Below are positions 1,724 to 38,876 of a DNA stretch of 64,000 nucleotides, in pieces; positions within the stretch are counted from its first letter, which is position 1, and each line of letters starts with the position of its first letter. The stretch spans positions 186,001 through 250,000 of the forward strand of contig CM066915.1 of assembly GCA_033964015.1 (NCBI GenBank), read 5' to 3'. The position numbers and the translations under genes are program-made. Source of the stretch: Scolanthus callimorphus (Eukaryota; Cnidaria; Anthozoa; Actiniaria; Edwardsiidae). The notes under the pieces were generated by a model. It made no database searches. It was not told the DNA's origin and saw only the letters and a program-made list of their open reading frames with translations.

Positions 1724-4700
1724 ATGAACATGAAACCATTTTTCATTGTCGGCCTTGTTCTGGTGTTAATGGCTGCCAGCCCGGTCTTTACTAGGTAAGT
1801 AGAAACTGAAAACGTATGCAATATGGCCAATGATGTGACTTCAACATTATGGGGTTAACTTTAGGTCTTGCCAAACTCACCAGACAGGCGATTCGAGGCC
1901 CTTTTGGTTGATCCGTGATTTGTGGTTTATAAGAATAACCTCCTTAAATGATTTTTTCGTTTACGGTTGAAATTGATCGGAATTCGGTATTGATTTATGC
2001 AAATTAAAGCCAACTGCCTTTGCGAGCTTGTGTTTTAGTTTTGAATATCTGTTGCTGTACTGTCGCACTTTGTAGTAATTGGCGCACTTGTTGTAATACC
2101 TGACGCAATTTGTAATAAAGTTGCCACACTTTGTAATAAGAAAGCTAACGCAATTTGTAATAAGCCCCTGTCGCAGTTTGTAATAAAAAGCTGACGCAAT
2201 TTGTTAAACCCGGGCTTAAAGGCGGCTACGCGCCTGGCCTCGATTTGAAGCTTTTGTCTCGTGAGCATTGGAGCGTAATTCAAACGTTGGCTGTTAATCC
2301 TTAGTCCGGCGGATTAGCGTAAAAATTGCGCACTTTTGGCTAAAGACCTTTGCATGTCAATAGTTTTCAGTAGTTTATTGAAGATAAGATATGGAGGCAC
2401 GCTAAATTTTATTCGTAGCGAAAGCTAGAACAGTTTTAATGTGAACCATTGTTTTGCCATTGGCAGCCATCTTTGAATCCTTTGTTACTCATGAGCTCTG
2501 CGGCACTTCGTGAAATCTTCTATCGTCCGTGTTTATAGAGTATAGCACAGTACTAGGTAGAAAATATCATGTGAAAATTTCAAAGCAAGCTTCTTTTTAC
2601 ATATTCGACACATGGTACCAATTATCTTGATATTTTTTAGAATTTGTTTTGTTGGTCATTCTTGAAACATTTCATGACATTTAATAACCACCAAAAACTC
2701 TAAGGAGACGTTCAACCAAAGTCAGTCAAGCCAATCCATAGTTCAGAATTGGGGACTCCCATACTTTTTGACCGGGGATGATCGTCGGAAATTTTCAGTT
2801 TCACCCCTAAAAGATACCAAACATGGCGGGCCATGGCGTGGCTCAAATAATTTCTTACCCTAAAAGATACCCTAAAAGATGAGGCCTTATGTGCAAAGTA
2901 GGCGCGAAGGAGACAGGTAACAAGTAAAAGATACCCATCAAGAAATTTCCGTGTTTGTTTCTAATTTATCGTCTTCTCATCGAGTAATCTCTCTTTCTTA
3001 CACGGTTTTTAGAAGCACCATCATGAGAGATAACAATTTGGACACATATTTTGGCCCTAAAAGATACCAATCTCCCTAATTTTATGGAAGATTAAGATCA
3101 CCCCTAAAAGAGACCAAGGCCCCGTGATTTTAACCCCTAAAAGATACGACGATCATCCCCGGTCAAAAATATGGGAGTCCCCCCCCCCCGGGGAGTTGCC
3201 AAATTCATTAAGAGAGATGCCTAAAAATAGATTCAAAAAGAAGCTACATGCTGCTTTGATTGAAATTTTACAATCATCGATGATTACGTTGATATATCCC
3301 AAATTAGCACAGCTCCTAGTAAGGGATTTCCAAACTTGAGCACATTAGCCTTTTTGTTGTCTCTATATGAACACTTGCTTGGATCTTTGTGATCCTTGTT
3401 TTTCCTAGTGCCTTTGCCATATTCAATTTTTGCCACTTTCCTTCACTTGTGTATTGTTTCTTTCTTTTTAATATCCTTGTATATTCCTAAATCTAATTCC
3501 GGATACCCATTGCTCCTTTTTTTGCTTAAAAATTGCTGCTCTCATTCTTTATACATATTTTAATTTTACTGATCCGCCACGATTAGCTTTGGTATTTGTA
3601 GATCAGTTTGAAGTCTATCCATATTTGGAACTCCAGGAGTTTTCCTAGCTTATTTTAACTATTAATCATATACGCCAGCTCGAAATCCCATTGTGCCGGC
3701 AGATCGATTTTTCTTGAATTGTCCAATTATTTTTTAATTGGATCGCACGCGCTCTAATTGGACAGTTCGCGCTAAAATTGGACAGTTTGGGTTTGAACAT
3801 GGATGTTATATAATTAATAAATAACAGGACTCCATGCTTGTCCAATTAAGAAAAAAATGGATGATTCCTCGGAACTCCAAATTGGACTCGGCCTGCGGCC
3901 TCGTCCAATTTTGGAGTTCCTCTGAATCATCCAATTTTTTCTTAATTGGACAGCATGGAGTCCTATTATATATACATATTGCCGAAAAATTCGTCAAGAC
4001 TTGCAGATATTGGAGAGAAACGCCATTCGTATAAACACATCTTTTTAAACTTTCCTTGTCTTGATTTTTTAAGACCATAATTACATTTTCTCCAAAAAGA
4101 ACTTGCTGCCGGATCAAATTGTAAAGTACCTCTGAATGCTGTTCCCCGAGAACTGTTGAAATTAAGAGGGGGCCTAGGGGGGTTCTCAAAACCGCAAAAC
4201 CGCACAAAAATTTCGAAAATACCGCCTATCCGCACAGATTTTTCGGGAATACCGCTCACCGCAAAAAAGTTTTTCTTTTATATCTTAACTGGCGCCGTTT
4301 ACACACGCGAAGTCAGTCAAATGCTTTCCGCTAACGATTCCGTGCTATTCAATGGCAATCAGACGTTCTATTCAAGCAAAACAAGAGCGGAAGATTGTCT
4401 TGAGCCCTACAACCATCCGCCAGTGTGTAACTTGTGTTTTACTGCAATTCGAGAGTCTTGGGACGCTAAATACCGCTACCGTAGGACTCGCAAACACCGC
4501 AATACCGCATTTTTGTACACAAATTACCGTGTAATCGCAGACTAGTTCACCAATTTTCGCACACCGCAGACTTTGAAAATACCGCATAACCGTAACTTTT
4601 AAGCTTTTTAACCGCAAAACCGCACAAAAACACAGCCAATACCGCATCACCGCAAACCCCTAGGCCCCCCTAAGCAATAAAAGTACTTTCCGCGTGCTCT

Positions 4701-6205
4701 CTGCTTTCTTACAACAGGAGGGGGAAGTTGGGAGAACTGATCAAAACCAAGTTTTATCAGTTCGACCAACATTTCCCGAGTGTTTGTAAGAAACCAGAGA
4801 CAGTACACAGAAATAATTTTTATTGCTTTTAGAAAATCATACACACGCGCGACAGCGTTGCGTGACAATTGTGTTTCTCAGGTCTCTTACAAACACGCTT
4901 TTTAACCAATCAGAATGCGCACATTCACAATACAACATAGGTGTTATTTTCTAATGGTTTTTTTAACGCTTTTGTGAGTCAACAGTTTATTTACTTTTAG
5001 TGAAAAAAAAAATATGACAAAGCAGTGCATTGGAAAGGTGCTTCTGCTCCTTAGTCCCAAAGGCTCTGCTCCACTATATATGGGAAAATGTGCTTTAAAA
5101 CAGGGACACCGTAGTTCTCTAAGTGGAGAAGCAAGTACTTTAGATTGTATGCCAAGGTGGGGGGGGGGGGGCTGAGTTTAGTGAAAATGTATGAAAACTT
5201 GGCGAAATGTGCCCTCCGCCGTTTCTGCAAAATGTAGACACTTTTCTGTCGCTGATGGGAGATTCTTAGTTTATACTAGAGTCTTTTTTGTTGTCTTATC
5301 ATTCCTTGTTTTGACCCCTGATCAGAAGAGGCGGTGGCAGGAGCAGTAACAGCGGTAGCAGGAGCAGTAGCCGGAACAGTTTCGGCTGGAGCAGTTTCAA
5401 TAGCAGAAGCAAAAGCAGGAGCAGTTACAGCAGAACGAGTACTTACAGAAGTCCTAGCAGTTACAGCAAGAGCAGTCCGAGCACTTACAGCAAAAACAGT
5501 TACATCAGGCCGAGCAGTTACAGCAAAACGAGTAGTTACAGAAGTCCTAGCAGTTACAGCAAGAGCAGTCCGAGCACTTACAGCAAAAACAGTTACATCA
5601 GGCCGAGCGGTTACAGCAGGAGCAGTTACAACAGTCCGAACAGTTACAACAGCAGGTGGAGCAGTTTCGGTAGCAGCATAAAATGGAAGAATAGTGGACA
5701 AGGAGACCGCCCCTACCGTTCCGCTTATGAAAAGCTAGTTTATCTTTTATGCAAAGATTACAACAGCAGTAGTGCCACAAACAAATCGTATGGTGGACAA
5801 GAACACCATCCTTACCGATCTGCTTTTAGAAAGCTAGTTTATCTTTTATACAAAGATTACAACAGCAGTAGTAGCACCAACAAATCATATGGTGGACAAG
5901 AACACCATCCTTACCGATCTGCTTTTAGAAAGCTAGTTTATCTTTTATACAAAGATTACAACAGCAGTAGTAGCACAAACAAATCGTATGGTGGACATGG
6001 AGACCACCCTTACCGATCTGCTTATGAAAAGCTAGTTTATCATTTATACAAAGATTACAAAAGCAGCAGAAGCTCCAAAATATGGAATGTTGGAGAAAGA
6101 GGTCATCGTGTCCTAAGTGCTTATGGGAAAAAGCTAGTTTCTCTTTATAAAATGCAACATCAGCACAGGGGAGTACAGGGGGGCGTCACGAGTGCAAAAA
6201 GTTAA
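1724..6205 (+). CDS. Secreted Ser/Tyr-rich tandem-repeat protein (two exons, novel)
   Basis: Exon 1 (1724-1794) encodes a 23-residue signal peptide beginning MNMKPFFIVGLVLVLMAASP and ends in phase 2 at AG|gtaagt. The intron is 1795-5325, with acceptor gatcag. Exon 2 (5326-6205) completes an Arg codon and stays open for 292 codons to TAA at 6203. Predicted length is 316 aa. I recognise no known family. The mature N-terminal part (about 120 aa) is close to half serine with Arg, Lys and Tyr and no acidic residue. It contains two 31-residue repeats (93 bp, 5420-5512 and 5513-5605) built on SYSK, SYRSPS and TYSKNSYIRPS. The C-terminal half has four 33-residue (99 bp) repeats with KLVYLLYKDYNSSS-TNKSYGGQ, then a decayed fifth. 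The exon lacks an in-frame ATG before 6151. A structural or matrix/adhesive role is a guess from composition. A CAGAAG tandem acceptor allows a one-codon variant. The last 13 codons are transposon-derived. Confidence 0.7.
2061..2205. repeat. Short degenerate tandem repeat (20-24 bp unit)
   Basis: About seven imperfect units of the form [G/A]ACGCAATTTGTAATAA follow one another in the first intron. The right side (2190-2285) joins sequence resembling the end of the inverted-repeat element at 59754-59905 (GAGCATTGGAGCGTAATTC), so the array may be internal to a decayed copy of that element. Confidence 0.6.
2752..3183. mobile_element. MITE-like element with about 35-bp terminal inverted repeats
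   Basis: The left end GGGACTCCCATA-TTTTTGACCGGGGATGATCGTCG is mirrored at 3148-3183. The interior is spaced with the repeated motif CCCTAAAAGATACC. There is no coding capacity. It sits in intron 1 of the secreted-repeat gene. Confidence 0.75.
3821..3969. repeat. Long inverted repeat (hairpin element)
   Basis: Two arms of about 65 bp (CAGGACTCCATGCTTGTCCA and its mirror) flank a short GC-rich loop (TCGGCCTGCGGCCTC). The stretch just before it (3718-3790) repeats GTCCAATT / AATTGGAC motifs, which suggests a larger decayed element of the same family. Confidence 0.7.
4166..4672. mobile_element. MITE with ACCGC-rich subterminal repeats
   Basis: The terminal inverted repeats are AGGGGGCCTAGGGGG at the left and its mirror CCCCTAGGCCCCCCT at the right. 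Many ACCGCA / GCGGT words cluster near both ends, typical of subterminal transposase binding repeats. It is non-coding and intronic. Confidence 0.7.
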
Positions 6206-6959
6206 AAATCAGGAGTCACGGATGTCGAAAATAAGCTTTCACGGATCACGAAAATGGATGCTGGGAGATCACGCTCTACTCACTGTTGTTGCTTACCCGT
6301 GACACGATTTAACGCTATAACGGACCGGTTATTATTTATCGCCTGGGGGATCTGAGGATTTTGCGCAATATACGGTAAAAAGAAAGTGATCCCCCTCCCT
6401 TATTTGTAGTGGAAGACGTTTTACAAAAAGAGCGGTTCGCATTCTTTTGTTGCGCACGAAGCGCGTCCTGATTTTAATAAACGCATTTCCTCAAGCCTCA
6501 GAGAAAAGGTTGATGGACATTCCATTTTTGTGTTTAGTAAATGAAGGCTGTAAAGGCGAAGTTATTTTTCTTCATGTGCGTAAAGCGCGGCTTAAATGAT
6601 GAATTTCTATGCTTGTAACGTAGAAATCACGCTGACCTAAAGTGTCAGTTCTTTCGAACATAGTGACTGCCCGCCAGACCTTTAAGTGTTTTTTTTGGGG
6701 GGTGGAGGGGGAGTTACTGGGCGTTCGTTCCGCGCGTTCGCAAAAATTACATTTCTTCTCTAGCGCGCGAGCGCGCCGAAATTGTGTAATGCTTATGATT
6801 TAGAAGTTGCTGGAAGAACTCTTGTAAGAGGAGACCCCTTATGAGTTTTCGAGAGATACCCCTTTCGCTCGCATAAAATTGAAATGATCCCCCCACAGGC
6901 CATAAATAATGATCGGTCCCTCAGTATCTGAACGAATGCGCGTGACTTTGACAAACAAT

Positions 6960-7020
6960 TAGCCTGCGTAAGCAGCCGCCACTAGCCGGCGAGCGGTAGT
7001 GGCGGCTGCTTACGCAGGCT
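6960..7020. repeat. Near-perfect hairpin
   Basis: The 23-bp arm AGCCTGCGTAAGCAGCCGCC+ACT is mirrored exactly around a 15-bp GC-rich centre. It is nested in the transposon at 6166-7561. Confidence 0.85.
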
Positions 7021-7026
7021 AACAAA

Positions 7027-7333
7027 CATTATTATTCAGCACATCGATGCACTGCCCAAATATGGTCATTGGAACACCAATAGCTGTCTTCTGTACATGA
7101 CAGCTATCCTGCGATATCCGTCTCTGAGGAAAATGTGATGTTTTGAGCTCGTAAATAATGCACAAAAGTCACTTTTTTCGGGGTTTTTTGTGCTATCGAT
7201 GTGCTGAATAATAAAACCATTATCCTGCTCGATTTTGCAGAATATCGTCTGATTTTAGCCAACTCGGGACTTCGTCCCTCGTCGGCTAAGTATCAGACGA
7301 TATTCTGCGCAATCTCGCAGGATAATGGTTAAA
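7027..7333. mobile_element. Two adjacent nested inverted-repeat elements
   Basis: The first has ends TTATTCAGCACATCGATGCAC and its mirror (about 7029-7213). The second (7212-7333) has arms ACCATTATCCTGC...GCAGAATATCGTCTGAT mirrored around a loop with ACTTCGTCCCTCGT. Both lie inside the 6166-7561 element. Confidence 0.65.
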
Positions 7334-7566
7334 TGTAACCATTGATATTTTTGCCAGGCGCTATCACTCGCCACACTGCGTGAAGAGGGGTGACGTCACT
7401 TGAATACCACGGATCACGATTTTATCAAAATCAAAATGTCAAAATCACGATTTCTCGATGCTCGATTGTGCACGAATCACGAAATAGGATTGGCCATTTC
7501 ACGGATCACGAAAACGAAAAGGGCCGATCACGGTTCACGACAAAAACCCTGTACGCCCCTGTCAGC

Positions 7567-7682
7567 AGTAGCAGCAAAAAATGGAATGGTGGACAAGAAG
7601 ACCACCGTTTCCTAACTGCTAGTAAAATGAAGTTAAATATTCTCCGATTTATACTACAAGTCACAATAGTTTTCGTATATTA
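7567..7682 (+). pseudogene. Detached, decayed last repeat unit of the secreted-repeat gene
   Basis: The words AGCAGTAGCAGCAAAAAATGG and GGACAAGAAGACCACCG match the 99-bp repeats at 5690-6100. It lies on the far side of the transposon. Without the element the upstream frame would stop one codon after the insertion point (CAG CAG TAG), so this unit was probably already 3' UTR. Confidence 0.55.
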
Positions 7683-14804: not shown

Positions 14805-15855
14805 ATGTTGAGTAGACACCCTGGCGTCACTATAATAATGGTAGACATTGAAAACAATACATCGTGTGCTCTTCGCTGCAGTTTAAAAAGTATCTCGTCC
14901 CGTTATCGTCAAGAAGGTAAGCCCTCTAATAAATGCATACGATGAGAGCTTCTACCGTTCTTATTTTGTCAGCTGTTGATGTAATGTGAAACCACTAAGG
15001 ATTGAAACTAAACTGAAAATGTTTCGCCCATTTTCCCAAGTCTTTATTACTAGGCCTAACAAATTTGTAATAACAAATTTTATATTTCAAAAAACTCATG
15101 TTTTTACATTTTGCCTTGAAATGCAAATATCACTGATTATATAGCAGCGCAGATCCTAGTAGCTTTATATTCATTATATCAGTGCGAAGATTAGAAAAAA
15201 ACAGCTGGTTGTAAAAATAAAAAATAAAAACTACAAAAGGAGAGATAAAAAAGAGCACAATTGGTTATAATGGGCGTATAAATTAAAATGGAACGGGCTA
15301 ATTCAAAACGTAATTTAAGACATTCAATTTTGAATTGATGCGCAAACAATGTTGAACCATCTGATGACACTGTCCACGAAAACTTCTAGTGGGGCAAGTG
15401 AGCGACACATTGCGCAAAATATAAAAGCTTCAATAATTATTTTTCGTCACCCTAGCTGTTATAAAATTAAACCGCTTCAAAAGAAAAATTTCTATGCGTT
15501 ATCTAGGGTTGAAGGAATGATACTATTAAGGTGTATGAGAATTGATTGACTCTTGAGCATGTTGAGTTTCAAGTCGCCGGTGTCGCTTGTTATTTTTTCA
15601 TGTTTTGTCCCTTAACAGGTGCATCCATATGGTTTTGTATTTACCTAATCAGCACTTTAAAGCCGTCGATGAAAGTCTTAGAGCTCAGAAACATATTTCA
15701 TTCAGTATTTCCCTCATCCTCCGCATTATGGCTTGGAAATTAGTCTTAAGTGCAATATTTATCGCCCGATCATTGGTATTGCTTTCCAAAGCCGGGATCA
15801 TTTATCTTGTATGATGATTTAATATATCTAGACAAATCACTCGAAAGTGTTCAGG

Positions 15856-17724
15856 ATGGCTCTGCTAAGACTTTTCCTTATTAGCAACTTGCCATTTTAT
15901 ACCTTGACTTCTGTATTTCATCCTTTTACCATCAAAAACTACTCTATTCGATCTGAAAATAAGTATTTTGAGGGATACACAACAGGATGGTTGGAGTGCA
16001 TGGTGATTTGCCAATATGACAAGCAATGCTCGGCCTACAGCTACAAGCACAAGAAACACCGAAATCACGGAGTCTGTCAGCTTTCGGCGTGCTTTACCCC
16101 TTTGGCTGAAGCAAAAAAAGTTCTTCTTTATTCTAAAAGACATCTGTATCATCAGTTGAAAAGAAAGGTAGGGGAAATCTCAAAAGAAAGCTTATTTAAT
16201 TAGTTGTTCTTTGTTGACGACATCTTGACATGAAGTGTATCAACCATCAAGTAATGTTTGACAAAAATGTTATCTTGCTTTTCTTAGCGCGAATCATTTT
16301 CAAACATTTATTGCCTGACTATATGCCGGTCTTCAAGCTTTGTCGAGGGGTTATTGTAATTTGTTTTTTCAGGGACATTGGCCATGCACGAAAAAGAATC
16401 CTCATGTCTTTACTTGCCCTTCAGGTAAGCAAATATTTTTTTCTGTATTTATGAATTCTATCGCGAACTCTCCACCAAAGCGCGAAACTGTCCTTTGGTG
16501 TGGAGCCGTCATTGAAAGTACGTCTAGAGCCCCGATAAGCCGATAGACATTACGAAATCCGCGAGGTGTTTTTGGTTGGTTGTGTGATGCTTTTTAATAG
16601 AACTGGATTGATGAAAGATTGACCAGATTCTATAGGTGAATATATAAATCATCTCCAGGGACAAGAACGCCAGTTCTATGGTGAAGACAGTATCTTTGTT
16701 TAAATGTTTTTGACGGACGCCAGCACGCAGTTTTGTGATTGGAAATCCAAATTTGGAGTTCGCAGAGCTATCGAACAAACGTGAAAATACACGGTCGCTA
16801 GACAAGGAGAGGTTGGAGGAGTGAACGGGCTGTATTAGATGGCACAAAATTGGGCCATCATAAGGGCTGTAAAAATAAGGGCTACAAAATACATATGCCT
16901 GCCCTCCGAGAGCCAGGTCTTTGCACCGGGAGATATAGTGCCCCGACCCTTACGAAAAGTGCAAGGGTTCTTTCGCGTCCAAGGGTAAGGAAGGGGGACG
17001 GAAGAAAGTTTATTATCTCATCCGAAAGACTAAGGAATCATTAGAAAATTAGAACCTTGTTCAACTCAATATAAAAACCCTGAATCGCGACTCGAAAAGC
17101 CCGTAAGGAAATCCAGGTTTGTTGGATGCTGTATTTAAGGAGTTACAGAGAAAGCTGGTGTCTGCGTTGTTAAGCGATGATTGCACTTCCTCATACTAGT
17201 GACAATAACCATAGTACGTAACTAACTGTTATTGCTATGGCTGCAATTTTCCTTTTCGTGACAATAAAGCGGAGCCGTAGCCGCCAAAACTTGATGGTTC
17301 GCTTCAACATGTTGACACTTTCATTTTAGTCTGCTGTAAACAAGAATGGAAACCATTTGGGAGTAACTGCTACAAGTTCTACGAAGACGGAAGATCTTGG
17401 CAGAACGCAGAACGTGTCTGTAGTCAAATTGCGGGAGGTCATTTAGCATCGATTCATTCTCAAGAAGAGAACGACTTTCTTAATGTTCTTGCGAATGAGA
17501 CAGTCAAGAGCAGCACTTATATCTGGGTGGGGCTTAAGGAAATCGAGAATGACAGCATGTTTGTTTGGTCTGACGGATCGTTTGTGGTAAATGGATACAG
17601 ACGATGGGAGCCCAGGCAACCTGATCATCAACTTGAGTGTGGCAACATGAATAAGTACGATGGATACTGGTATGATTTTATGTGTACAAAAGAGAACTCA
17701 TTCTTGTGTAAGTACAGGCCTTAG
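15856..17724 (+). CDS. Secreted PAN/apple-like plus C-type lectin domain protein
   Basis: Three coding exons fit in phase: 15856-16167 (phase 0), 16373-16424 (phase 1) and 17330-17724 (stop TAG), giving 252 aa. The N-terminus MALLRLFLISNLPFYTLTS is a likely signal peptide. A Cys-rich PAN-like segment follows (WLECMVICQYDKQCSAYSY ... GVCQLSACF). A short linker exon (GHWPCTKKN...CPSG) leads to a full C-type lectin domain: WKPFGSNCYKFYEDGRSW, the WIGL-equivalent IWVGL, then ECGNM...WYDFMCTKENSFLCKY. The calcium/sugar site is atypical: EPRQPD stands in place of EPN, and WYDF in place of WND, so canonical mannose binding is doubtful. A cag acceptor sits one base before the ATG, which implies a non-coding 5' exon upstream, perhaps ending at 14916. 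Such combinations are common in cnidarian secreted recognition and matrix proteins. The ligand is unknown. Confidence 0.87.
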
Positions 17725-21400: not shown

Positions 21401-22886
21401 TTTGAACGTCACGGGCATTATGGATCATTTTGATGACGTCATTGATGACGTAAGGGCACGTGACTTTGGTGTAGAGTTCCTCTTATGGTCTTTGAAACTT
21501 TGTCCAAGTTTGGCTTCTATAGAAGCTTCTCTTCGGGAGATATGATTTTTTCTTTATTTTTCTGGTATTAAACCTATAGCGTACGCCGTCCGTCCGTCGT
21601 CCGTCCGTCCGTCCGTCCGTCCGTGTACACATGGGAACCCTGTGGTATGCAAAGAAAAAATTATATCTCCTCAAGGGAACATGCTAAGACAACCATACTT
21701 GGAATATTTTGTCTATGCCACAAGGGGGGTGCTGTAACACGGTCACGTGATATGACGTCATCGATGACGTCATTTATGCTTGAAAAATCAATATCTCGTG
21801 AAGGGAAGACTCTAAAGTAACCAAACTTGAAAAATCAATATCTCGTGAAGGGAAGACTCTAAAGCAACCAAACTTGGGTAATGTAATCCACGTCACCAGA
21901 TGAGCGAAATGAAGTGGTCACGTGATATGACGTCATCGATGACGTCATCTACGCTTGAAAAATCAATATCTCATGAAAGGAAGACTCTAAACCAACCAAA
22001 CTTGGGTAATGTAATCCAGTTCACCAGATGAGCGAAATGAAGTGGTCACGTGATGTGACGTCATCGATGACGTCATCTATGCTTGAAAAATCAATATCTC
22101 GTGAAGGGAAGACTCTAAGAAAACCAAACTTGGGTAGTGTAGTCTAGGCCACCAGCTGAGCAAAATGAGGTGGTCACGTGATATGACGTCATCGATGACG
22201 TCATATATGCTTAAAAAACCAATATCTCGTGAAGGGAAGACTCTAAAGCAACCAAACTTGGGTAATGTAATCCAGATCACCAGATGAGCGAAATGATGTG
22301 GTCACGTGATATGACGTCATCGATGACGTCATCTACGCTTGAAAAATTAATATCTCATGAAAGGGAGACTCTAAACCAACCAAACTTGGGTAATGTAATC
22401 CAGGTCACCAGATGAACGAAATGAAGTGGTCACGTGATGTGACGTCATCGATGACGTCATCTATGCTTGAAAAATTAATATCTCGTGAAGGGAATACTCT
22501 AAAACAACCAAACTTTGGTAGTGTAGTCTAGGTCATTAGATGAGCGAAATGAAGTGGTCACGTAATATGACGTCATCGATGATGTCATTTATGCTTGAAA
22601 AATTAATATCTCGTAAAGGGAAGACTCTAAAGTAACCATGTAAACCATGTACACATGGGAATCCCATTCATTCACACAGAAAATTTTATAACCAGGAGCT
22701 CCGCTTTTAGCCAGTGGCTAAATCTATATATTATTATCTATGCTTTCATTTATATGCGGATTTCAAAGGATACAAACGTTTTAGCCAGATTTCGGTAACG
22801 ATTTGCTTTGGATAGAAAGTTAAGTGCTACTTACCTAGTAATGTTAGGAGAATTGAAATTGTATAAAACCATCTGTGTTTTGACAT
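18448..22886 (-). CDS. Carbohydrate sulfotransferase, HNK-1/CHST11-14 type (Sulfotransfer_2)
   Basis: The last exon, 19092-18448 (phase 0 in, TGA stop, 214 codons), opens with VACSNWKR and contains the 3'-phosphate motif FVRDPLDRLLSAFRDK and a Cys-rich YYLCQPCAVDYNFIG segment. The preceding exon, 19470-19312 (53 codons), ends VLYCYIPK, so the junction restores CYIPKVACSNWKR, the 5'-PAPS-binding loop. A likely first coding exon at 22886-22835 (MSKHRWFYTISILLTLL, ends in phase 1) gives the Golgi signal anchor. Its phase does not match the 53-codon exon, so at least one stem exon between 19.5 and 22.8 kb remains unresolved. The family transfers sulfate from PAPS to chondroitin/dermatan or related glycans in the Golgi lumen. 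The exact acceptor cannot be told from sequence. The first intron holds the 128-bp CRE-rich array and a LINE fragment. Confidence 0.8.
19826..19994. mobile_element. Partial copy of the CAAGAGTGGATTA MITE family
   Basis: It matches one half of the elements at 40553-40915 and 41218-41547 (AAAGTCGCAAAGATAAGGT ... ACTCTTGTTAATCCACTCTTG). It lies in an intron of the sulfotransferase gene. Confidence 0.7.
20195..20425. repeat. Inverted repeat pair
   Basis: The segment ATGGATCGGCTCATGATAAG...GTATGTACTAGGCC at 20378-20422 is mirrored at about 20210-20255 (GGCCTAGTACATACACCGCT). It is a decayed element. Confidence 0.6.
20700..21160 (+). mobile_element. Truncated LINE 3' fragment
   Basis: A frame from 20758 encodes FILKCPNYKNLRNEVFHTIE...FTRIMSLKYKENIQKTMAKFVWEAKTERQRLL. 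It resembles the conserved C-terminal Cys-containing end of LINE reverse-transcriptase ORFs (F.CP.Y...R...F). It is followed by a (TCTA)n tail at 21143-21155. It is 5'-truncated and not functional. Confidence 0.5.
21298..22740. mobile_element. Composite transposon-like unit carrying a 128-bp tandem array
   Basis: The left edge AGCGGAGCTCC...GCGGAGCACCATAC and the right edge GGAGCTCCGCTTTTAGCCAGTGGCTAAATCTATATATTA recur separately at 19228-19272, 31158-31195, 31366-31378 and 57298-57350. This indicates a dispersed family. Between the edges lies a head-to-tail array described separately. No transposase is seen. Confidence 0.6.
21741..22680. repeat. 128-bp tandem repeat with paired CRE palindromes
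   Basis: The string GGTCACGTGATRTGACGTCA recurs at 21741, 21916, 22044, 22172, 22300, 22428 and 22556. The spacing is 175 bp once and then exactly 128 bp five times. Each unit normally carries the E-box-like CACGTG and two TGACGTCA palindromes separated by TCGA or overlapping ATCGAT, plus the conserved tail AATATCTCGTGAAGGGAAGA. A degenerate unit is visible at 21410-21470. Confidence 0.9.
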
Positions 22887-22901: not shown

Positions 22902-25270
22902 CTGCAAAATAATAGCGAAAAACTAAGCTCATGCTGCTCGAACTTATATCCCAACATACATATGACATTCAAGATAACTACTTAGTAATAATTCGTCAAC
23001 TGGCTTTTCTTGTTTTATAAGGAAGTGCATAGCTCGCATGAAATATAATATAATACTTGACGCGGCCACTTTAAAAATATTTGAAATCCAAATTTCAAAG
23101 TTTAGTCGTTACCAAATCATTCGTCTGTGTAATATATATCCATACTCTATTTTACATGAATACAGAAAGAAACGGTCAATTCTTGAAATCTTTACAAACT
23201 CTTTCTATGACATGTCTTATATGAAAAGCAACGACTTATATTCAGTATATATACATTTTGTAACTGTCTTCCTATTTTGCAAATTAAATTGTCGATGATT
23301 TACTGAAGCAAAGACACTCGCACGACGATGAGATGGCGATATTTTAAGATGGAATACACTAGCAGTTCGAGTAAGCAGTGGACGAAAATGAAGTACCAAG
23401 ATGAGTTGCATTGAGGTTGCATTGCATTGCAAACGTCTGTGAAACGAAACCATTTCTAATAACATCAAATTAACACTAAAAACGAATTTGTTCTTACAAA
23501 ACACTAGGAAATTGTAGCGGACTGATCGAAATTGACACATGTTTTCTATTGCAGTATTTGTTTCAATTTGGAAGTTTATTTTTACAGTCTCCAATGGAAG
23601 AGTTTGGTGTTACGAGTAACATCTGTAGCTTTTACAATATGCAAACAGATTGATTATATCCTGGCTACATCGATGGTACAAGATTTCTGTCCACCAACCT
23701 GAAATTGCGCGATTTCTAAATACATTTCCCGTTTATACCTTTGTTTGCGCCTGTTCAACCAGCATTAGTTTTTTAATCTGGTTTTATTTCCACTGCCATC
23801 CGACTTGCTGCACCTCGAACCCTAATCCCATGTATCATCACCTTCAACCAAGAGGACTCTTGCTGAAGCCGCATGTAGATCGCTTTGCCTGACTTCTGAA
23901 GTCAATATTTACTTCCTCATGACAGCTCAGTCTCAAGCAACTCAGAAGTGATTTAAATACTGAATATTTTATTTCGCTGGTCACGGACACTGTGATCAGG
24001 CACGGATCCGGTTTTAACCAGTTTATGGGAAATCAGAGAAAATAAAATGACAAAGTTCTACAAGTGGCAAAGCAAAGGCTCTGCAAGAAAACCAACCGGT
24101 TCATTTAACTTCCCTCTCGCATTTTTCTTTTCCAATTTCCTTTATACACTACCCCTAGATACTGCATAATAATATTGTAACTTTTTTTAACATTTCATTA
24201 TGAGTCAATAAAAATTATGATTATGATACCTCTTTCTTGGGGAGGGGGGTGGGTGGGGATTCTTCCCCAAAGAAAATTTGAAATTTCAGATGCACACAGA
24301 TTGGCTTGAAATATATCAAAAATTAGGGCAAGTTACTTCTAAAGTTTTGCACCCCCTCAATCTTCGGAAAATTTCTGTATCCCCAATTTTACTTATAAGA
24401 TTTTTTGAGATCTCTTCTGAATTTCACCTGCCCCGGCCACTCCGTCATACTTTATGAACGCAGCCTTGGAAGGTCAAGCAAATAAACACCAAAATGGTGT
24501 CGGTATGATATAGAGGAGCAGAATTGCTTTTTCAAGGATTGCTAATTTTTTGAAGCGGAGATTAGGAAGGCCGTTGCCATGGCAATGCGCCCCCCTCTTT
24601 TTTTTGGAAGAGTGGATGATTGTTTAAAGAACTCCCTATTTTTTTCTCTGAAGCAGTGGACTTCCTTTTTCGGAAGGAGGGGAATCCTCCCTTTTTTGGA
24701 AGGAGGAAATTCTCCCTTTTGTTGGAAGGAGGAGTCTTATTGTTGCCCCTTCTATTCGTTAATAAGAAGAATATACTGTTGTTAATCCTTCTTCCACTTT
24801 GGCATACTCTTTTAGTATTCTTTCCCCGCGTACATTAAGGGCGCATTTGTAATCTTTACAAGTTAAGGGAACAAGACTATTTGTCTTTCCACGCACCCTT
24901 GTGTTCTTTAAGAAGTGACTATTGCGATACAGAGTTCGTGCTGAGACGATAAGCGTGAACAAACACAGACATATGCTAGGATTAGCTGTTTCAAAAGGCG
25001 GTGCAATTAGGCATGTCACACACAAAACTATTTTAATCTTTGTGGCTCGGTTAGACTGGTCACGCACAAACCCACTATGTAAAACTCTTTCTTAGGATTA
25101 TTTTTCTGGAGGGAGGGGGTTCTAAAATGAAAGGGAGGGGGCAGTAAGGATAAGGGGGCTAGATGTCAAAGAATCCCCCTCCTAAATGTTTACCCCTCCT
25201 CAAAGTTTTGACCAAGTTTCAACCTGAGTGTTCTTAATCCACGTGTTCTTTCATGCGGGGTTTTACTCTA
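22902..25270. other. Gene-free stretch
   Basis: No supported exon on either strand. There is low-complexity pyrimidine/purine tract sequence at 24590-24745 and G-rich runs at 24240-24260 and 25110-25160. Confidence 0.45.
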
Positions 25271-26535
25271 TTATCGTTTCTTCCATTTCTGTGCAAAGTT
25301 CCTCGTTACGAGTGGAATATCCACGCGCGACAAAATCTCTGGCGAGCCATACGAGTGAAGGTATCCCATGGTGACCATTACATCACTGCACTCATTTTCA
25401 ACAATCTTTATCATTTCTTGCGAAGTCCGCAATCGCCATTTCCGTAAAGAGATCGTTGAATTCCTTCTCGTAGAGAAAACCCCTTCTTTTCCGTCTAAAG
25501 ATGTATCCGTAAAGTGCGTTCTATTGTAAAGCCATTGGCGCATTTCTCGCGGCAACGACAGGTCAACAAAATCGAAAAGCTCTTCGGTGACTTTGACCGG
25601 TTCCAGAACAAGGTCTTCGTACCTTAGAAGTTTAAATCGTCCTTTGAGCCAGTTTGGAGGGTCCCTAACCAACCGCAAATTTTCCTGCATTTGTCTGCAT
25701 ATCCTCTGAACATATGCAAGAAATTCTACGCTTTTTATAGGGTGAAAAGTCAGTTTTCCTTTTTTTACGTACGACATCCATGCCCCTCGATACATGGACG
25801 AGATTACCGCACGAGGGTCGCGCACCAAGTAAACAATCTTTCCACTATAAGCCTCGGTTTCAAACAGAGGCTTGAGGCTTGCAATTTTCTTCCCCATAAT
25901 TCTATGTTCCAGAATTTTAACTGCGGTAATTCTATACTGTTATACTGCAAAGTTTTCGTCTTCGCCTCGGGTTTACAGAAAGGAGACGTTCTGAGAGCGT
26001 TACTAGAGAATCTAAAATGCCCAGGTCTCGAAAAATACGTGAAGTATTCTGACGCTTTTATATTACAATCTAGTAGTTCGCCCATAAACATGGTGGCTAG
26101 GTCGTTATAGCGACGCGAAGGTGGACCAATAAATGTATCAAATCGATCCACCAACTCTAGAACGCGAAACGGTTCAAAGAAGTACAAAACTTCGGGATGT
26201 TGGTTGAAAATTTCTCCAAGAAAGGTTGATCCACTTCTGCCTTGACTGATAATTATAACGTTTGTTTGTTTTCCCGCGGTTTTCTCTTGAGCCTTAGAAG
26301 TTTTGAGTGATTTTTGAGAGGCTTGGATTTGGCTTTCTTTTTGGCGGGAAAATATTTCATCCGGGACAAGCGGGTCAGATTTCCGCGCGTCTATGCCCCA
26401 TGTCTGTTGCAGATTGAAATATTCCCATTCTGCGGCGTTGCGCTGTAGTTCGTGTCGTGTCTGCCAGAACACACAGACCGCTAGGAGAAATAGCACGAAT
26501 ATCCATAGCACGACGGGAACCCTGTGGCATCCCAT
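25271..26535 (-). pseudogene. CHST1/3-like sulfotransferase, copy 1, disrupted by a 61-bp deletion
   Basis: The start is ATG 26535 (MGCHRVPVVLWIFVLFLLAV, a type II signal anchor). The 5'-PAPS loop IIISQGRSGSTFLGEIFNQH and FFEPFRVLE follow. At about 25941-25950 the sequence lacks 61 bp that are present in the duplicate copy (39575-39640 region), which shifts the frame. The second part is open in another frame to TAA 25271 and holds the 3'-phosphate motif YLVRDPRAVISSMYRGAW and RYEDLVLEP. The family (Sulfotransfer_1, Gal/GalNAc/GlcNAc 6-O-sulfotransferases) acts in the Golgi. It is otherwise intact, so the lesion is either recent or an assembly artefact. Confidence 0.8.
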
Positions 26536-27456
26536 GATATGCACTCTAAACCCTCAATTCGTTGGCTGTCAATCATAAAAAGCTGTGGAAAAATTAAAGG
26601 GAAAGCAAAAAATTATCTCATATCGCCTTGCATTCAATGGGAATTTTCATAACATCGTTTGATTGCAGGGTTTTCTGTTCCGCCAGTAAAACCATCTAAT
26701 CGGACCTTGCCCTATAGAAAAAGACCAAATCGTAAACCAAAATTATGTTGTCAAAAATGCGCTGCGTGAATCAATGACTTAAGCTGAAAAATAAAAATAC
26801 ATTTGCCTTTAACTGCAATGCCTTTTTTAATGGTGTCTGTTAACAGTATGTGCTGGCACATATTCTTGCTTTTTAAGGTTCTAAACAAACAAAAGCTCCC
26901 AACATTTTTGTGTGTGAATTTACGAATCATAGAAAATCTTTCTTACTGCACTCAGTACAGTGTCCTTTTCTGGACTGATTTTCAACTAAGAATATGTTAG
27001 GACGGTAGAGCATATCAAGATAGTTTCCTTGAAAAAGTGTCGACTTTCTTCAACTTCCTTATAAGGAAATATCTGCAAACTATATTTGTTTTTTCGCTAT
27101 TTTTATTGACCTAGAAAGCTTAAAACTGAACCAGAACTCAGATACACTTGAGAAAAGATGTTATGTACATTTTCCACTGTGTTTTTCACGGTCAAGAACC
27201 TGTAAACAAGGTAGACAAGACACCACAGGAAACCCGCTCGATCACTAAAAAGACGACACTGTTATCTTGATATTATAACTGACTAACGACGAATGGGTAT
27301 AAAAGGTATTGACTACCGACAAGGATAAAAAAATACCGATTAACGACAAATAAATGTTTAGCGGCCACCGACATTCATTACAAAATATTCAAACCAGATT
27401 ATGTTATTAAAAGAAAAGTATATTCTGAGAAATAGTGAGTGCTTTAGACTTTTCTT

Positions 27457-27663
27457 CCCCCGTCCTCACTACTCCGTTTTTAAACGAAAACGGATACTTT
27501 TTGCTCCGGATACGGCTATCGTCCACTCTACAACGCCGAAAACGATAACCGAAAACGGCGAAAACAATACGAAAACGATAAGTGTGGACGCAAATCGTTT
27601 TGAAAACGGAGCAAAAAGTATCCGTTTTCCGCGTTTGTAAACGGTGTGTAGTGTGGACGGGGT
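27457..27663. mobile_element. MITE present only in duplication arm 1
   Basis: The ends CCCCGTCCTCACTACTCCGTTTT and its mirror (AAACGG-GTGTAGTGTGGACGGGG) enclose GAAAACG-rich sequence. The corresponding position in arm 2 (about 41590) lacks it. Confidence 0.75.
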
Positions 27664-27970
27664 CTGAGTTTCATGATAGGTATAACACTATATGCATCCT
27701 TAGACGGAAAATAGAATAAGACGAGATGACGTGTGTGCGCATGCGCAAACAGACATCTTAAAAAATATCTCCTTCCCGTGTCATTTTATTGCCTTCTATT
27801 GGTTTTTGAGTAAAAACATGCTAAACGGCAGCTGTGGAAAACATTCTGCATTATGATCGTGAGATAAGCTACTGCTAGTTAAAAAGAAAACCAACAGTGT
27901 GTCCCACATGGACCTCTACCACACTCTTCAGGCCTATAAATACGTTGGTGATGCATGATTAATTAGCTGA

Positions 27971-28165
27971 TTGTTCACTAACGGTACAAGGGGCGTCCTT
28001 ATATGGTCTGGTGGCCGGGCGTACTCTCACCCATAGGTATCTAGCTACTGAGCAATTCAACACCAGGATAGCGACTGTCAGGGCCGAAATCTCTGGCGTG
28101 GGCGTAAGAACCGTACGGTCGCCATACGACGCTTCAGCTCTTTGTCTGGAAGTATGGTCCTATTT
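27971..28165. other. 195-bp invariant block, copy 1 (candidate small RNA gene)
   Basis: All 195 bases are identical to 41926-42120, whereas the flanks differ at about 5-8% of positions. A TATAAATA box starts 36 bp upstream in both copies, and T-runs follow at once (TATTTCTTTTTT here, TATTTTTTTT there). This geometry resembles U6-type Pol III genes. CTGGTG/CACCAG and TGGCG/CGCCA can pair, and ACCGTACGGT is palindromic. I do not recognise U6, 7SK, RNase P/MRP, Y or SRP RNA. One forward frame is open and shows a weak RTVR helix-turn-helix-like string, so a transposase remnant or recent gene conversion remains possible. Confidence 0.4.
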
Positions 28166-28272
28166 CTTTTTTCTTTTTCCTCAAATAAATGCTGAATTTG
28201 CATTGGTGTGGACAATTGCCATATCATTTTATCACAAATACTACAAACGGCTTTACCACCAAGTGGACCTCA

Positions 28273-28413
28273 TTCTCGAACCCAGAGCTCCCCGGCTCGT
28301 TTCCTCGCGGGGGAGGCTCTGGTGACGAGATTTAATACAAAGCTGCTGAGAGAACATTCTCGTACCCAGAGCTCTCCGGCTCGTCTGCTGGCAGGGGAGG
28401 CTCTGGGGACATC
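28273..28413. repeat. Two short inverted-repeat units (CTCGNACCCAGAGCTC family)
   Basis: Units at 28273-28327 and 28358-28413 each begin CTCG[A/T]ACCCAGAGCTC and end GGGGAGGCTCTGG-GAC. A related stretch is at about 46845-46870 in the TRMT5 intron. Confidence 0.6.
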
Positions 28414-28656
28414 CATTTGAGGGCCGTCGCTGATTGGCTGATTTTGAGCGTTCGAGCATGCGCTGAGGTCTTTCTCTCAACGGCTCAGACTTGCGGTTAG
28501 TCATGGCACTGGCAGCACTCCAGTGATAATAAATGCACACTTTTCAGTGCTAGACCTCATATTTTTTCATAGTTTAACTTTACGAGGTTAATTGTTAACT
28601 TAGTTTTTGAGTGACAAAACGAGGGGGTGGGGGGCGGGAGACACTCGCCCCATTGT

Positions 28657-28811
28657 CACTCGGCCAAAAAATCCAAGATGGCGCTCGCGACTACGAACTC
28701 CGGGTTTTCGCCGATAAAACAGCCTCCAACCCTGTCACTCGGCCAAAAAATCCAAGATGGCGCTCGCGACTACGAACTCCGGGTTTTCGCCGATAAAACA
28801 GCCTCCAACGC
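28657..28811. repeat. 79-bp tandem duplication
   Basis: Two consecutive copies start CACTCGGCCAAAAAATCCAA and end GATAAAACAGCCTCCAAC. Each contains AAGATGGCGCTCGCGA. They are nearly identical, so recent. Confidence 0.9.
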
Positions 28812-30282
28812 CTGCTAGCAGGCTAAGTCCGTATTGGCCTATCTTTCTTATACTGTTATACTTTGTGAGTCTCTTGTCGTTATGGATGCCTGAGAATCCA
28901 ACCATAAGCTGTTGTCTTCTCGTTCTCTTTACATTTAAGAGTAAAATAATTTACGTTCGTTTGAGTGGAACGAATTAGAACGTAATAACATTTTGTGCTT
29001 GCGCAAAAAGGCAGTGTGTCAATTTGTTTCTATAAACAGTAGAGAGCTTTTATTCATGTCTTTCCATAGTTGTAAAAGGGCTGTGAAGTTTCATTCATAC
29101 GCGTCCAGTAGAGCAAAATAGTGAAAAACGTCTCTAGCCATTTTAGCCCTCTGAACCGTACAACAAACAATAAACATGAGTGGACCCGAGAGTAGCTAGA
29201 CAAGTTTTACTTTGTACGAAAATTTCAACACACAGAATTTTATTCTTTTATATGAGATAGACCCACATAAAAAATCTTCAAAAATAAGTTTTTTTTAAGC
29301 GGACACTCTCTGTTATTTGCGCTTTGAATTGTGGCTTTTGACATTCAATGTAGTTGCAAGCAAGTCGACAATGTCAATGGAAAATATGCTTTAGTTTGGA
29401 CATTATTTTAACGAAAAAGGAACGCGACACAGTAAGCCTGGCCTCTGTACACGCTCTGTCAATATCGAAAATTAGGGCACCTTGCTTGTACACTTCTAAA
29501 GGAAAACGAAGAAAAAGAAGCGAAAGCTGACGTTTATGCACAGAATCAGTCAACTACGTAACCTCAAACACAAACTTTGTTTGTTTAGACAAAGACAGTG
29601 TAGCGAGACAGTTTTAAGCAGTCACTTTCGCACAAACAAACTCGAAAACAGTATCGTTTTTTGAAAACCTCTTACCTCATTTTGCTCCAAAATGAATAAG
29701 CACCAGCTAAATAAAATAAAAGATCTGAGGATGAATGGTAAAAGACAAGTCTATTGAACGCTTTGTGCTGGAATTAACCCCGTTAATTTTTAATAAGCGT
29801 GAAATTAAAAAGATCGTCAAGTTAAAAAGCAGCTCACCAGTGTGTTCGCATGACTTGAACAGGTTGTTTACGTTACTAAAATAAACATTCACCGATATAA
29901 AATTGTGGGCGGCTTTGTGAACAGAACTGTTAAAAGCAACGCCCAACTCGATTCAGGTTATGACTTGACAAAGCGTTTTTTAAAGTAGGGTTTATATTTA
30001 AAGATGTGCTTTCCATTTACGAAATAGGAATTCCTGTAGTAGGAACGTCTCGACTGTGAATCGAGATATAGACGGGGTGCTTTCCATTTCCCACAAATAC
30101 ATTCGGTAATACCGGTTAGAAATCAAATGGAAGGAGTCCTTCCGCGGAAAAAACCGGGAATGATGTCAAATGGAAAGCGTTTTCCTGATATTTTCGAAAT
30201 TACTGGTTTCTTGGACAATCTCAAAAGGATGTCCCAAATTTCCAAAAATATTTCCCCGGAATGACGCTTTTCATTTGATTTC

Positions 30283-30401
30283 TAGCCTGCGAGCCGGCTC
30301 TCCAGAGTGTTTTCCAGAGAGTTCGTTAGGATGCGCGCGGATCCCGCGCGCCAAAAAAATATATATCCGAAAAAAACCACTGGAGAGCCGGCTAGCAGGC
30401 T
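30283..30401. mobile_element. 119-bp MITE with 10-bp TSD, absent from arm 2
   Basis: The TIRs are AGCCTGCGAGCCGGCTCTCC and its mirror. The target ATTTGATTTC is duplicated at 30273-30282 and 30402-30411. Arm 2 has the uninterrupted site at about 43697-43706. The long duplication is compatible with a Mutator-like origin (inference). Confidence 0.85.
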
Positions 30402-30787
30402 ATTTGATTTCCCACCGGTTTTTGGCTTTGCTGTTTCGTTATTCCATTTGATTCAACTTCAACTCGACATTTGTTGAATCAGTTATTATGTAGAAAGGGG
30501 GTGCCAAACCAAATATGCGTCTGGCTGTTGACAAAGTTCAACAAAGTTAAATTGGTTTGGCAACCGCGTACAATTAAAAAGAAATTAAAACAAAAGTTCA
30601 ATGAAGCCGAATCAAATGTTGAAATTGGTTTTGCCCCAGCCTTGTGCGGGCTCCGAAAACCCACCACGGCCGAGCCTACAGCCTTATAAACCAATCAGAT
30701 TCTGACACCGTTTCGCCTAGTGCAGTCGCATGGCTTTCGTGTGACATTTGTCTGGCTTTCGTTCAGAGGGAAGCCAGTCGAGGAGTG

Positions 30788-33126
30788 TGTCACGAAGTGG
30801 TTTTCCGTCGGGACCGATACACCCTAGGCAAGTAGACGAGATTAGCTTGGTCAAACTTTATTAGGGTGAATCACAGTTTCTATACGCTTGCCGTAGGAGG
30901 TACTAAGAGTAGCTTTTTGGGAAAGTCACGGGAGGCAAGGTGACTCCTTGTCCAACAAAGGGAGGAGTTCCTTGACCGGCGACCTTGTCCTTAACAAATT
31001 GTAAACCCTCTCGTACCAACCGCCGCAGGCTTCACTGTTGATAGAGTCGACGAGACGCAATAACCAAACCTATATATTATTACTCATCTGCCAAACACTT
31101 ACTACGCAGTTCTTCATGCTGTGTCGGTTTCCTATTGGTTGTAGCTACAGTTTGAAATTAATAATATATAGATTTAGCCACTGGCTTAAAAAGGAAGCCA
31201 CGGGTTACATACTTTTCTGTGTTGCGGTCTTGGTTTACCTGTGTGGGGGCGCACAGACACGGACGCGCCAGCGATACCCAAATGGAAATACCGCTGAACC
31301 ATGAAAAATGAAGTCGATCGTTATACCCGAGTTCTACTTTGAGCTATTGTATTCTTCCTGCGATACCTATGGTGCTCCGCTATTACAAACAGTAACATTA
31401 ACATTACATAACAGTTTGTAAATAATATCAAATTATTATGTTTCATAACAGAGAGGCTATTTTGCCGAGGTTACTGCGATTTTCATAATTCTGCAAACTC
31501 TTTACCGATCAACAAACCGCGGTTTGGCTTCCGTCAATCAAACAGGCGAACACTCTGAGTGATTTCACGGAGACAGATGATAGAACTTGTGAAGATATAG
31601 GGTCTAGCTCTAGGCTTTAAAATTCAAATTTTCACTACCAAACTAAGAAAACATGCGTAGACTTGACATAAAAGGTTTGATTGACGGAAGCCAAAACGCA
31701 GTTTGGCATTCGGAATGTCAAGTGGGGGTTCCCAGAATTATGAAAATCGCAGTGTAAGTGCCGTCAAGTTTTTTACTCTGGTTTTACTACCGTTTTCAGG
31801 CTCGGTAAAAATTTCCATGTTCTTTTTTACTGAAAGAATCAGCACCAAATTTAAAATGAAATTTAGCCGATAACCGATAAAGTCACAGAAAAATGGCAAT
31901 CTAGCTCACTCTGCCTCGGTAACAATTTTTTTCTGGCTACGGGCCTGGTTTTAAAATGTACAATCAGTGGTTCCTTTTCCGTTTGGTTATAAAACGGATC
32001 AGGCAATTCTGCTGAATTAGATTCGATGGGTAAACTAGGATTGACGTCTGGAAACACACTTACACATTTATAGCGCTATTTATTTTGCTTAGAATCGTCG
32101 ATTTTTCCCAGAATATTAAGTTTAACCTGCTAGGCTGGCTAGCGTGTAGGGCTGGTCGGATTTCAGGATCCCTAGCCAGCTTTGTGGAGGGTATTCGGAA
32201 ATGTTTGTTTCCGGGGTTTACGGGATTGGAGGCATCTCTCTTGAGGGTTATTACAAAATGTTTGTTTTCAGGATTCCTGTGCGCCACAGGAATGAGATTA
32301 CGTACTATGCGAATAATAGGCTCTTTGCATGGACCTCTAGCTTCCAAAGGGTAAACCGAGCATGACTGGGACGCAGGGCTTGAAATTGCGCCCGAAATAG
32401 GCGTAAATACTCCTTTTTTTTTCTATTTTACACCTTATTTTTTAGACTTAGGCGAAAATAACAACTGTGTTTTGAGTTTTATATTGTTTTTCTGGTGGAT
32501 TTACGTCTAGATTTTTGATGAATTACACCTATAATGTTGTACCAATATTACAAAGCGTATTACGACTATGATTGTTTCCTAATTTCAAGCCCTGACACGG
32601 GAACATTTTGAACGTCCATATAAACAGCTTTAGTAATATACTATATTGGAAAACAAGTTAATAAAACTCCTTATTATATAGACACGAGTGTTTTACTGGG
32701 AAATACGCCACTCGTAGATCTCATACGAAGCTACATCCGGGTCCTCAGTGACATATTTTCCATATCCTCACTAGTGAGGATATCGGTCAAAACAAAAATG
32801 CTTGGAAATCAATTTGGAATATTTTTTTTCTGGTTTGTCTATATAATAAAAAGAAAATTACACGGTGGCTTGAAGATATGAGTTTTATTTTCTCGTGTCA
32901 AAAACAATATTTTACTCATTCGCTGCGCTCATTCGTAAAATATTGTTCTTGCCACTCGAAAATAAAACTCATATCTTCGCGCCACCGTGTAATATCCTCT
33001 ATATATGACGAAGGTATTAGCTATGGCTACTTAGACATTTAAAATAGAGGTTTTATAATTGCATTCCCACTAGCAGATTAGTTCGGAGCACGCTGTTAAA
33101 AATATTTCACAAAATAGAAACCTTTT
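30788..33126. other. Gene-free stretch of repeats before the second secreted-family gene
   Basis: Visible elements: 31158-31378 (edges of the family seen at 21.3-22.7 kb), 31474-31753 (TIR CTGCGATTTTCATAATTCTG), 32374-32594 (TIR CAGGGCTTGAAATT) and 32676-33007 (hairpin arms TTACACGGTGGC...GATATGAGTTTTATTTTC; its TTCCATATCCTCACTAGTGA motif recurs inverted at 12598-12628). No supported exon. Confidence 0.55.
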
Positions 33127-33345
33127 TGACAGGTGCAAAGAAGAGGTCGATTTCGTTTCATTGGTTCAATCCTCTTAAAAATCTATTGTCAAAAAGGCAG
33201 CTGTAATGATAATCGGACTATGGGTGTTGATTTAAATTTTATCTAAAACGACAATCAGAGACTATATTATCGCCTCCCCCAATGAGTAATTACTTCATTT
33301 TGTGTGTTAACTGTAAAACCATAAAAAGACGTTCTTAGGTTCACG
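33127..33345 (+). promoter_or_regulatory. Conserved promoter/5' leader of secreted-family gene (copy C)
   Basis: It aligns with 1499-1723 upstream of the Ser/Tyr repeat gene, sharing CATTGGTTCAATCCTCTTA and AATTACTTCATTTTGTGT and the same context around the ATG. Confidence 0.55.
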
Positions 33346-38306: not shown

Positions 38307-38876
38307 ATTAGAACAAAGAGACGATAGTAACATCAACACCTCAGACTATCTAGCTCAACCATAGAAGAAGGCAACGATGGCAATCACACCCACACAAGAC
38401 CGCCTCTCTTAAAGATGTGTGCCCGCCTATATAGCTATTTCATTAAAGGTTCTTGGAGTAAACGCAATCACAAGGAAAATGCTGTAAGACTGGAAAAAAA
38501 ATCGTATTTTTAGAAATCTACAAATATATATATATATGTATTGCTTTGTTAGCACTTATATTTCTGTAGCTGTAACTTGCACATAATTAAACTTGTTTAT
38601 TTACTCTCGCCTGTACGTTCGTAATTATTTCTCCTTAGCCTAGTCCCAGGCGGTCTGTACGGGCATCCTTTCCTCGGAGATGAGCTGCCAGGAGCGCGAG
38701 GGCTGTGTCTCGGCGGGGGAGAGGGGCTCTGTAGAAGCCCCAAGTGTAATAACTGGCTCCTAATGTAATTGGCGCGTTTCGATTTAGTTTGAATGGTTGA
38801 AGAACGAAAAACTTTGCTCTTGTCCAATAGAGACGTCGACTAAACGTAACTCTGGCTTCCTTTCTATTATCGTTTC

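Follow-up and report, generated by a model that had tools for sequence, protein, structure and literature searches.

We analysed a 64,000-nucleotide (nt) stretch of the Scolanthus callimorphus genome (GenBank assembly GCA_033964015.1, contig CM066915.1, forward-strand positions 186,001–250,000), which is referred to as the window and numbered from its first letter. We found that a two-exon locus at 1724–6205, gene A, is probably a real gene for a secreted repeat protein and part of a two-gene set with a common promoter and signal-exon cassette. The strongest new evidence for gene A is a putative paralogue, gene B. Alignment shows that the two predicted genes, ~32 kb apart, have the promoter, 5′ leader, signal exon and acceptor block in common. 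The explanation that fits best as a whole, which we hold only tentatively, is that these are genes with a duplicated promoter and signal exon, and that protein A would be a secreted, basic, structural Ser/Tyr protein derived from AGC-rich repeats. The gene features described below lie on the forward (+) strand.

Exon 1 of gene A (1724–1794, 71 nt) encodes a predicted signal peptide, MNMKPFFIVGLVLVLMAASPVFT(R), with a hydrophobic core of 3.2 over 11 residues on the Kyte–Doolittle scale, and ends in a phase-2 donor (ACTAG/GTAAGT). The intron (1795–5325) runs from this donor to the acceptor of exon 2 (5326–6205, 880 nt, 292 codons), the start of which is preceded by a pyrimidine-rich tract and CCTGATCAG, and the frame of which ends in a TAA stop at 6203–6205. 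Joined, the two exons give a frame of 316 amino acids (aa). The 293 residues encoded after exon 1 are rich in Ser (26.6%), Tyr (11.9%), Arg (8.5%) and Lys (8.5%), with an isoelectric point (pI) of 10.2, and include a single Met (0.3%) close to the end of exon 2. The first Asp or Glu after exon 1 comes only at residue 128, leaving residues 1–127 without an acidic residue. An earlier description of this DNA, made from its letters and referred to here as the sequence-only reading, had proposed a phase-2 signal exon joined to an 880-nt exon open for 292 codons, rich in Ser, Tyr, Arg and Lys, almost devoid of Met and free of acid in its first 120 residues. Each of these features was recovered, with the acid-free run extending through residue 127.

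The window holds two members with this signal exon, A and B. Gene B begins with a promoter and leader block (33097–33345), recognised by its similarity to the promoter and 5′ leader of gene A (1471–1723), where TATA-like and initiator-like motifs are visible by eye only. Its exon 1 (33346–33413) is a tblastn match of the gene A leader, encodes MNMKLVMLGLVVVLMTANPVFT(R) and ends in a phase-2 donor as in A. Positions 1471–1817 and 33097–33436 are 75% identical over 363 columns (E = 3e-58, in a search of the window only), and shorter colinear pieces further upstream bring the similarity to ~800 base pairs (bp) in all (1024–1817 with 32601–33436), of which the outermost is weak (E = 0.007). Given this colinearity in pieces across ~800 bp upstream, a mobile element was rejected as the source of the promoter block. 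Over the 250 bp immediately upstream of the ATG, A and B aligned with a score of 242; the highest score among 500 shuffles was 65. The 300 bp of intron that begin 25 nt past the donor scored 45, a value equalled or exceeded in 54 of 500 shuffles, and no similarity above shuffles appeared in the last 300 bp of intron ahead of the acceptor block or in two 500-bp 3′ comparisons. Similar promoters, leaders and signal exons alongside diverged introns would be expected were both genes to make use of these parts. The two copies of exon 1 have 12 identical codons, 3 synonymous changes, 7 replacements and a single in-frame codon gap, and they are nearly equal in hydrophobicity. Within the shared promoter block (1471–1560 and 33097–33190), we also noted by eye an imperfect inverted repeat, TTTTTGACA...AAGAGG / CCTCTT...TTGTCAAAAA, which encloses a reversed CCAAT box and is kept in both genes.

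The two genes are similar again at the acceptor of exon 2 of gene A, where a pyrimidine-rich block (5289–5330) matches 38225–38268 of gene B with 80% identity over 45 columns (E = 2e-4, again within the window). The local alignment score was 63, versus a maximum of 48 in 300 shuffles. In gene B, this block would serve a proposed last exon (38266–38306), read in phase 1 in the model and encoding GVKDKYEEQVARE and a stop. Two further exons are proposed upstream of it, one at 34724–34785 (RRAARRGAAAAPVAYAHPPNF), placed by splice signals seen by eye and phase only, and one at 36295–36354 (EHPGVKENSNLPPQPYQFEY), placed by splice signals seen by eye and a matching phase. The donor sides of these mini-exons (regions 34724–34845 and 36295–36414) are copies, with 29/30 bases identical, which suggests that they may have arisen by mini-exon duplication. 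The modelled protein B has 76 residues and has only the leader and the subsequent RR in common with protein A.

Exon 2 of gene A contains two tandem arrays. The first (5419–5618) has a 93-bp period, with 2.2 copies at 97%, and encodes a 31-aa unit rich in SSYS and TYSK; the second (5663–6157) has a 99-bp period and encodes a 33-aa unit made up of PYRSAFRKLVYLLYKDYN and then a Ser-rich linker. Tandem Repeats Finder gives 3.8 copies for the 99-bp array, and counted in register there are five units (starting at 5663, 5762, 5861, 5960 and 6059), the first and fifth of which are diverged. The sequence-only reading was therefore right that both arrays exist, and its count of four 99-bp units is corrected to five, with a sixth lying past an insert. 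All 11 tandem repeats listed inside exon 2 have a period divisible by three; outside it, this holds for 2/7 in one repeat listing (12 and 30) and 1/7 in a second (384, three times 128). With array periods of 93 and 99 bp, both divisible by three, any frame recurs from unit to unit, and the keeping of the frame is by itself no argument for coding.

The open frame of exon 2 is more than chance. It is the second longest stop-to-stop open reading frame (ORF) in the window. Each of the six other window ORFs of at least 200 codons has a Pfam match, in two cases below the curated cut-off; they comprise a G protein-coupled receptor (GPCR), a TRM5/TYW2 methyltransferase and four sulfotransferase pieces. 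We assessed openness by shuffling each segment with dinucleotides kept on one reference copy and applying the same permutation to all repeat copies. Among these repeat-preserving shuffles, at least one open frame remained in 4.2% for the N-terminal part (5326–5662) and in 0.74% for the five 99-bp units, and the whole exon stayed open in 0/5000, a probability that is somewhat flattering in that exon 2 was chosen for its openness. When the differences seen among the five units were permuted 1000 times, every unit stayed free of stops in 1.7% of cases. The earlier claim that other frames yield no sensible repeats holds in the 99-bp part, the only part where the Ser/Tyr frame is the sole open forward frame, and fails in the N-terminal half.

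Several points weigh against gene A as a functional secreted repeat gene. Its support comes from sequence, and its role is argued from composition alone. Exons 2–4 of gene B are a model based on splice signals, and gene conversion could be an alternative source of the conserved promoter block. Two other frames are open in 5322–5681: a Val/Ala/Thr frame of 119 codons and, on the minus strand, one of 152 codons. Measured against six ORFs of the same window, codon usage in the N-terminal half favours the Val/Ala frame (0.22 versus −0.13 bits per codon for the Ser/Tyr frame, with the stop-free minus-strand frame at 0.01), as it does over the whole exon (0.05 versus −0.07), where the Val/Ala frame has 7 stops; the 99-bp units slightly prefer the Ser/Tyr frame (0.01 versus −0.08). 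Purifying selection on the five 99-bp units was not significant, with a ratio of nonsynonymous to synonymous differences (pN/pS) of 0.80 and a permutation P of 0.215, and selection was dropped as proof of coding. This ratio compares with 1.28 and 1.07 in the other frames, and for the first four units the values are 0.67 in the Ser/Tyr frame and 1.54 and 0.73 elsewhere. The helical moments of the repeat segments (0.35–0.48) were not significant against shuffled segments (P = 0.06–0.15). Finally, the C-terminus is disrupted, in that a transposon-like insert wholly contains the stop and the final 12 residues of protein A. As to codon choice, AGC or AGT makes up 69/78 of the Ser codons in exon 2 versus 32/109 in the six reference ORFs; the exon looks like grown AGC-type repeat DNA, and codon usage is therefore of limited value there. 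On balance, the hidden secreted gene of the sequence-only reading is partly supported, as a predicted two-exon cationic Ser/Tyr gene, strengthened by the promoter and signal duplication and the acceptor block, with a weaker argument for the N-terminal frame.

We found no relatives of protein A. Exon 2 as a whole had no match at E 10 among the best 8000 candidates by shared words from a large protein set, residues 122–285 had none at E 10 among 563 candidates from the same set, and for the 76-aa gene B model this set held zero candidates with three words in common. Against Pfam, exon 2 matched DUF434 alone (E = 0.028, 14.5 bits versus a cut-off of 27) and the gene B model had no match, while PDB sequences gave no match to exon 2 at E 1. 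A pattern was fitted by 16 stretches of viral contigs and 86 of bacterial or archaeal contigs, with 0 confirmed in either, and these sets are not expected to hold animal DNA. A literature search found no match for three peptide strings, and among the papers listed by searches for Ser/Tyr-rich coral or cnidarian proteins we recognised none on a protein of this kind, a negative that extends no further than these searches. The claim that the composition is unlike any family is borne out within the sets searched, that is, the large protein set, Pfam, PDB, and the viral and prokaryote contigs. To our knowledge, the protein and contig sets hold few animal proteins, so the lack of matches is weak evidence of true uniqueness; our best guess is that protein A is lineage-restricted.

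In the structural explanation, genes A and B would be transcribed from the same duplicated promoter and protein A, judging by its leader, would enter the secretory pathway, with trimming possibly near the RR just past the exon junction, which is conserved in A and B. The released protein would be a basic chain (pI ~10), mostly disordered. Its N-terminal half, where Ser spacers alternate with Tyr and Arg/Lys, may act as a sticker-and-spacer sequence, and its C-terminal half would present repeated short Tyr/Lys/Leu segments (PYRSAFRKLVYLLYKDYN) linked by Ser linkers. The composition of the chain resembles that of condensing or cross-linkable secretions. Condensation might proceed through Tyr–Arg contacts, and hardening by tyrosine oxidation is possible. 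Simple AGC-rich repeats were probably the source from which the coding array expanded, with a promoter and signal exon already in place; such an origin would account for the absence of relatives. Our best guess for the role, made with low confidence, is a structural secretion such as an adhesive, mucus, cuticle or skeletal-matrix component. Ser-rich proteins are described as frequent in marine adhesives (PMC6626399), and a study of Hydra adhesion reports peroxidase variants, which it links to dityrosine in other secretions (PMC5080974). An acidic skeletal protein was considered and rejected, given the pI of 10.2.

Cnidarian tandem-repeat proteins are among the closest known systems. A Nematostella survey describes tandem repeats in 11–16% of proteins, with units usually of 5–20 aa, Tyr enriched and Lys depleted in the repeats, and many repeats open in other frames too (PMC2805694). 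Exon 2 has protein-level tandem repeats in its predicted coding frame, and resembles the proteins described there in being Tyr-rich, in the probably limited sharing between species and in having more than one frame open in the array; it differs from them in its units of 31–33 aa and its Lys content of 8.5%. Repeat-rich proteins with few shared units are known in cnidarians. In composition, the predicted signal peptide followed by a Ser/Tyr-rich low-complexity chain recalls the sabellariid worm cements Pc-3 and Sa-3C, which are described as having a signal peptide, an SY-rich region and a similar size (38.4 kDa for Sa-3C; PMC12621633). The likeness is one of composition. Pc-3 contains 72.9 mol% Ser and protein A 26.6%, with no poly-Ser dominance, and protein A would be strongly basic before any phosphorylation, unlike the cements as described there. 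Coral skeletal organic matrix proteins are likewise secreted and partly lineage-restricted (PMC6824150), although the acidic enrichment described for part of them contrasts with the basic protein A. The HYP secreted proteins of cyst nematodes are a modular, variable secreted family (PMC4177990), a likeness by description alone and from a different phylum and context.

A broader idea, which we regard as doubtful, is that the duplicated promoter and signal exon form a cassette from which new secreted proteins can be launched. Gene A would have taken up an AGC-rich minisatellite, since turned into a secreted Ser/Tyr repeat exon of 292 codons, gene B would have gained an unrelated Pro/Ala-rich peptide from duplicated mini-exons, and the end of A would have been rewritten by the insert, giving repeated birth of extracellular proteins at one locus. 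The A/B pair would offer a clean, testable example of secreted-protein birth, with the same promoter and signal exon and a different mature product. If transcribed, gene A would be another secreted gene missed by ATG-based and homology-based annotation, and would add to the candidate structural proteins of an animal lineage in which restriction of such proteins to one lineage is common.

The conserved signal exon and unrelated mature parts would also suit a family of defence or signalling peptides, in which a stable promoter and signal exon precede fast-changing mature exons and A is a long cationic member acting on microbes or receptors. Mussel myticalins are described as having conserved signal peptides and hypervariable cationic mature regions (PMC5577615), and A and B resemble them in the conserved signal region, the unrelated mature part, cationic in A, and the dibasic site. 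An RR directly follows the signal in both proteins, RAAR occurs in the protein B model and RPYR and RGHR in protein A, and the segments of the cationic protein A have the helical moments given above. We consider such a family unlikely. Those moments do not exceed shuffles, and processing sites in the 316-aa protein A are few, with four dibasic sites (RR24, RK192, RK225 and KK292), one GKK and two RXXR sites, and the dibasic and amidation sites do not bound each repeat unit. In the myticalin description, signal and mature parts lie in one exon and an acidic C-terminal extension follows the dibasic site (PMC5577615). In A and B the parts lie in separate exons, protein A is much longer, and its last 23 residues, past KK292–293, contain zero Asp or Glu; an acidic propeptide is likewise absent. 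A length of 316 aa is long for such a peptide, and two members were seen. A neuropeptide precursor was rejected, since four dibasic sites in 316 aa are too few and do not fall at each unit border.

It is improbable that exon 1 is real and exon 2 a non-coding AGC-rich minisatellite, with the true downstream exons elsewhere or lost. The strong AGC bias, the alternative frames open in 5322–5681, the repeats without significant selection and the many Nematostella repeats described as open in other frames (PMC2805694) would all suit it. It leaves the acceptor block in common with gene B unexplained, the phase of exon 2 fits that of exon 1, and openness of the whole exon was never reached in the shuffles. 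The gene B model protein, aligned to intron A, revealed no alternative exons, with only matches at E > 1.

The 3′ end bears on whether the secreted repeat gene is still intact. A transposon-like insert (6166–7561, 1.4 kb, no strand assigned) has inverted ends of CAGGGG(A/C)GTACAGGG, matching at 14/15, TCAGCA on both flanks and nested inverted repeats within, and would be compatible with a cut-and-paste DNA transposon. A displaced sixth 99-bp unit (SSSSKKWNGGQEDHR..., ~7563–7677) lies past the insert and, by coordinates, out of frame with unit 5. The altered end could be either a benign tail replacement or the start of decay. A formerly functional gene A now recently decaying, with its 3′ end damaged by the insert, would fit the severed sixth unit and the insert-derived last 12 residues and stop, but seems rather improbable given zero stops in the 279 codons of exon 2 upstream of the insert and the retention of exon 1, its donor and the promoter block. 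Highly improbable is a gene A with extra small B-like exons, in which phase-1 reading of 5326–5681 yields a Val/Ala/Thr-rich protein (EEAVAGAVTAVAG...) and leaves the 99-bp array untranslated: the phase of the modelled last exon of gene B and the codon usage of 5326–5662 favour it, but no B-like exons were found in intron A, and it would be a coincidence that the 99-bp array is open (0.74% of shuffles).

Intron A carries a foldback element at ~2751–3182, with ends that match each other in inverted orientation (91% over 45), and, at 3817–3973, a palindromic element. Between 4191 and 4660 we noted by eye many ACCGCAAAACCGCAC-type motifs, perhaps a further mobile-element remnant. Elsewhere, the rhodopsin-type GPCR, a C-type lectin and a PAN-like ORF are consistent with animal DNA. 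Rfam at gathering thresholds and a tRNA scan found nothing over the window, and a window sulfotransferase had no match in viral contigs. A segmental duplication (25267–30572 / 38863–43906, mostly on the minus strand, 78–96% identity in pieces) carries two near-identical sulfotransferase gene copies. A 128-bp satellite array occupies 21826–22638 (6.4 copies, higher-order period 384 bp), and at 15832–17721 on the + strand the PAN-like ORF, below the Pfam cut-off, is followed by the C-type lectin ORF, the two perhaps forming one gene.

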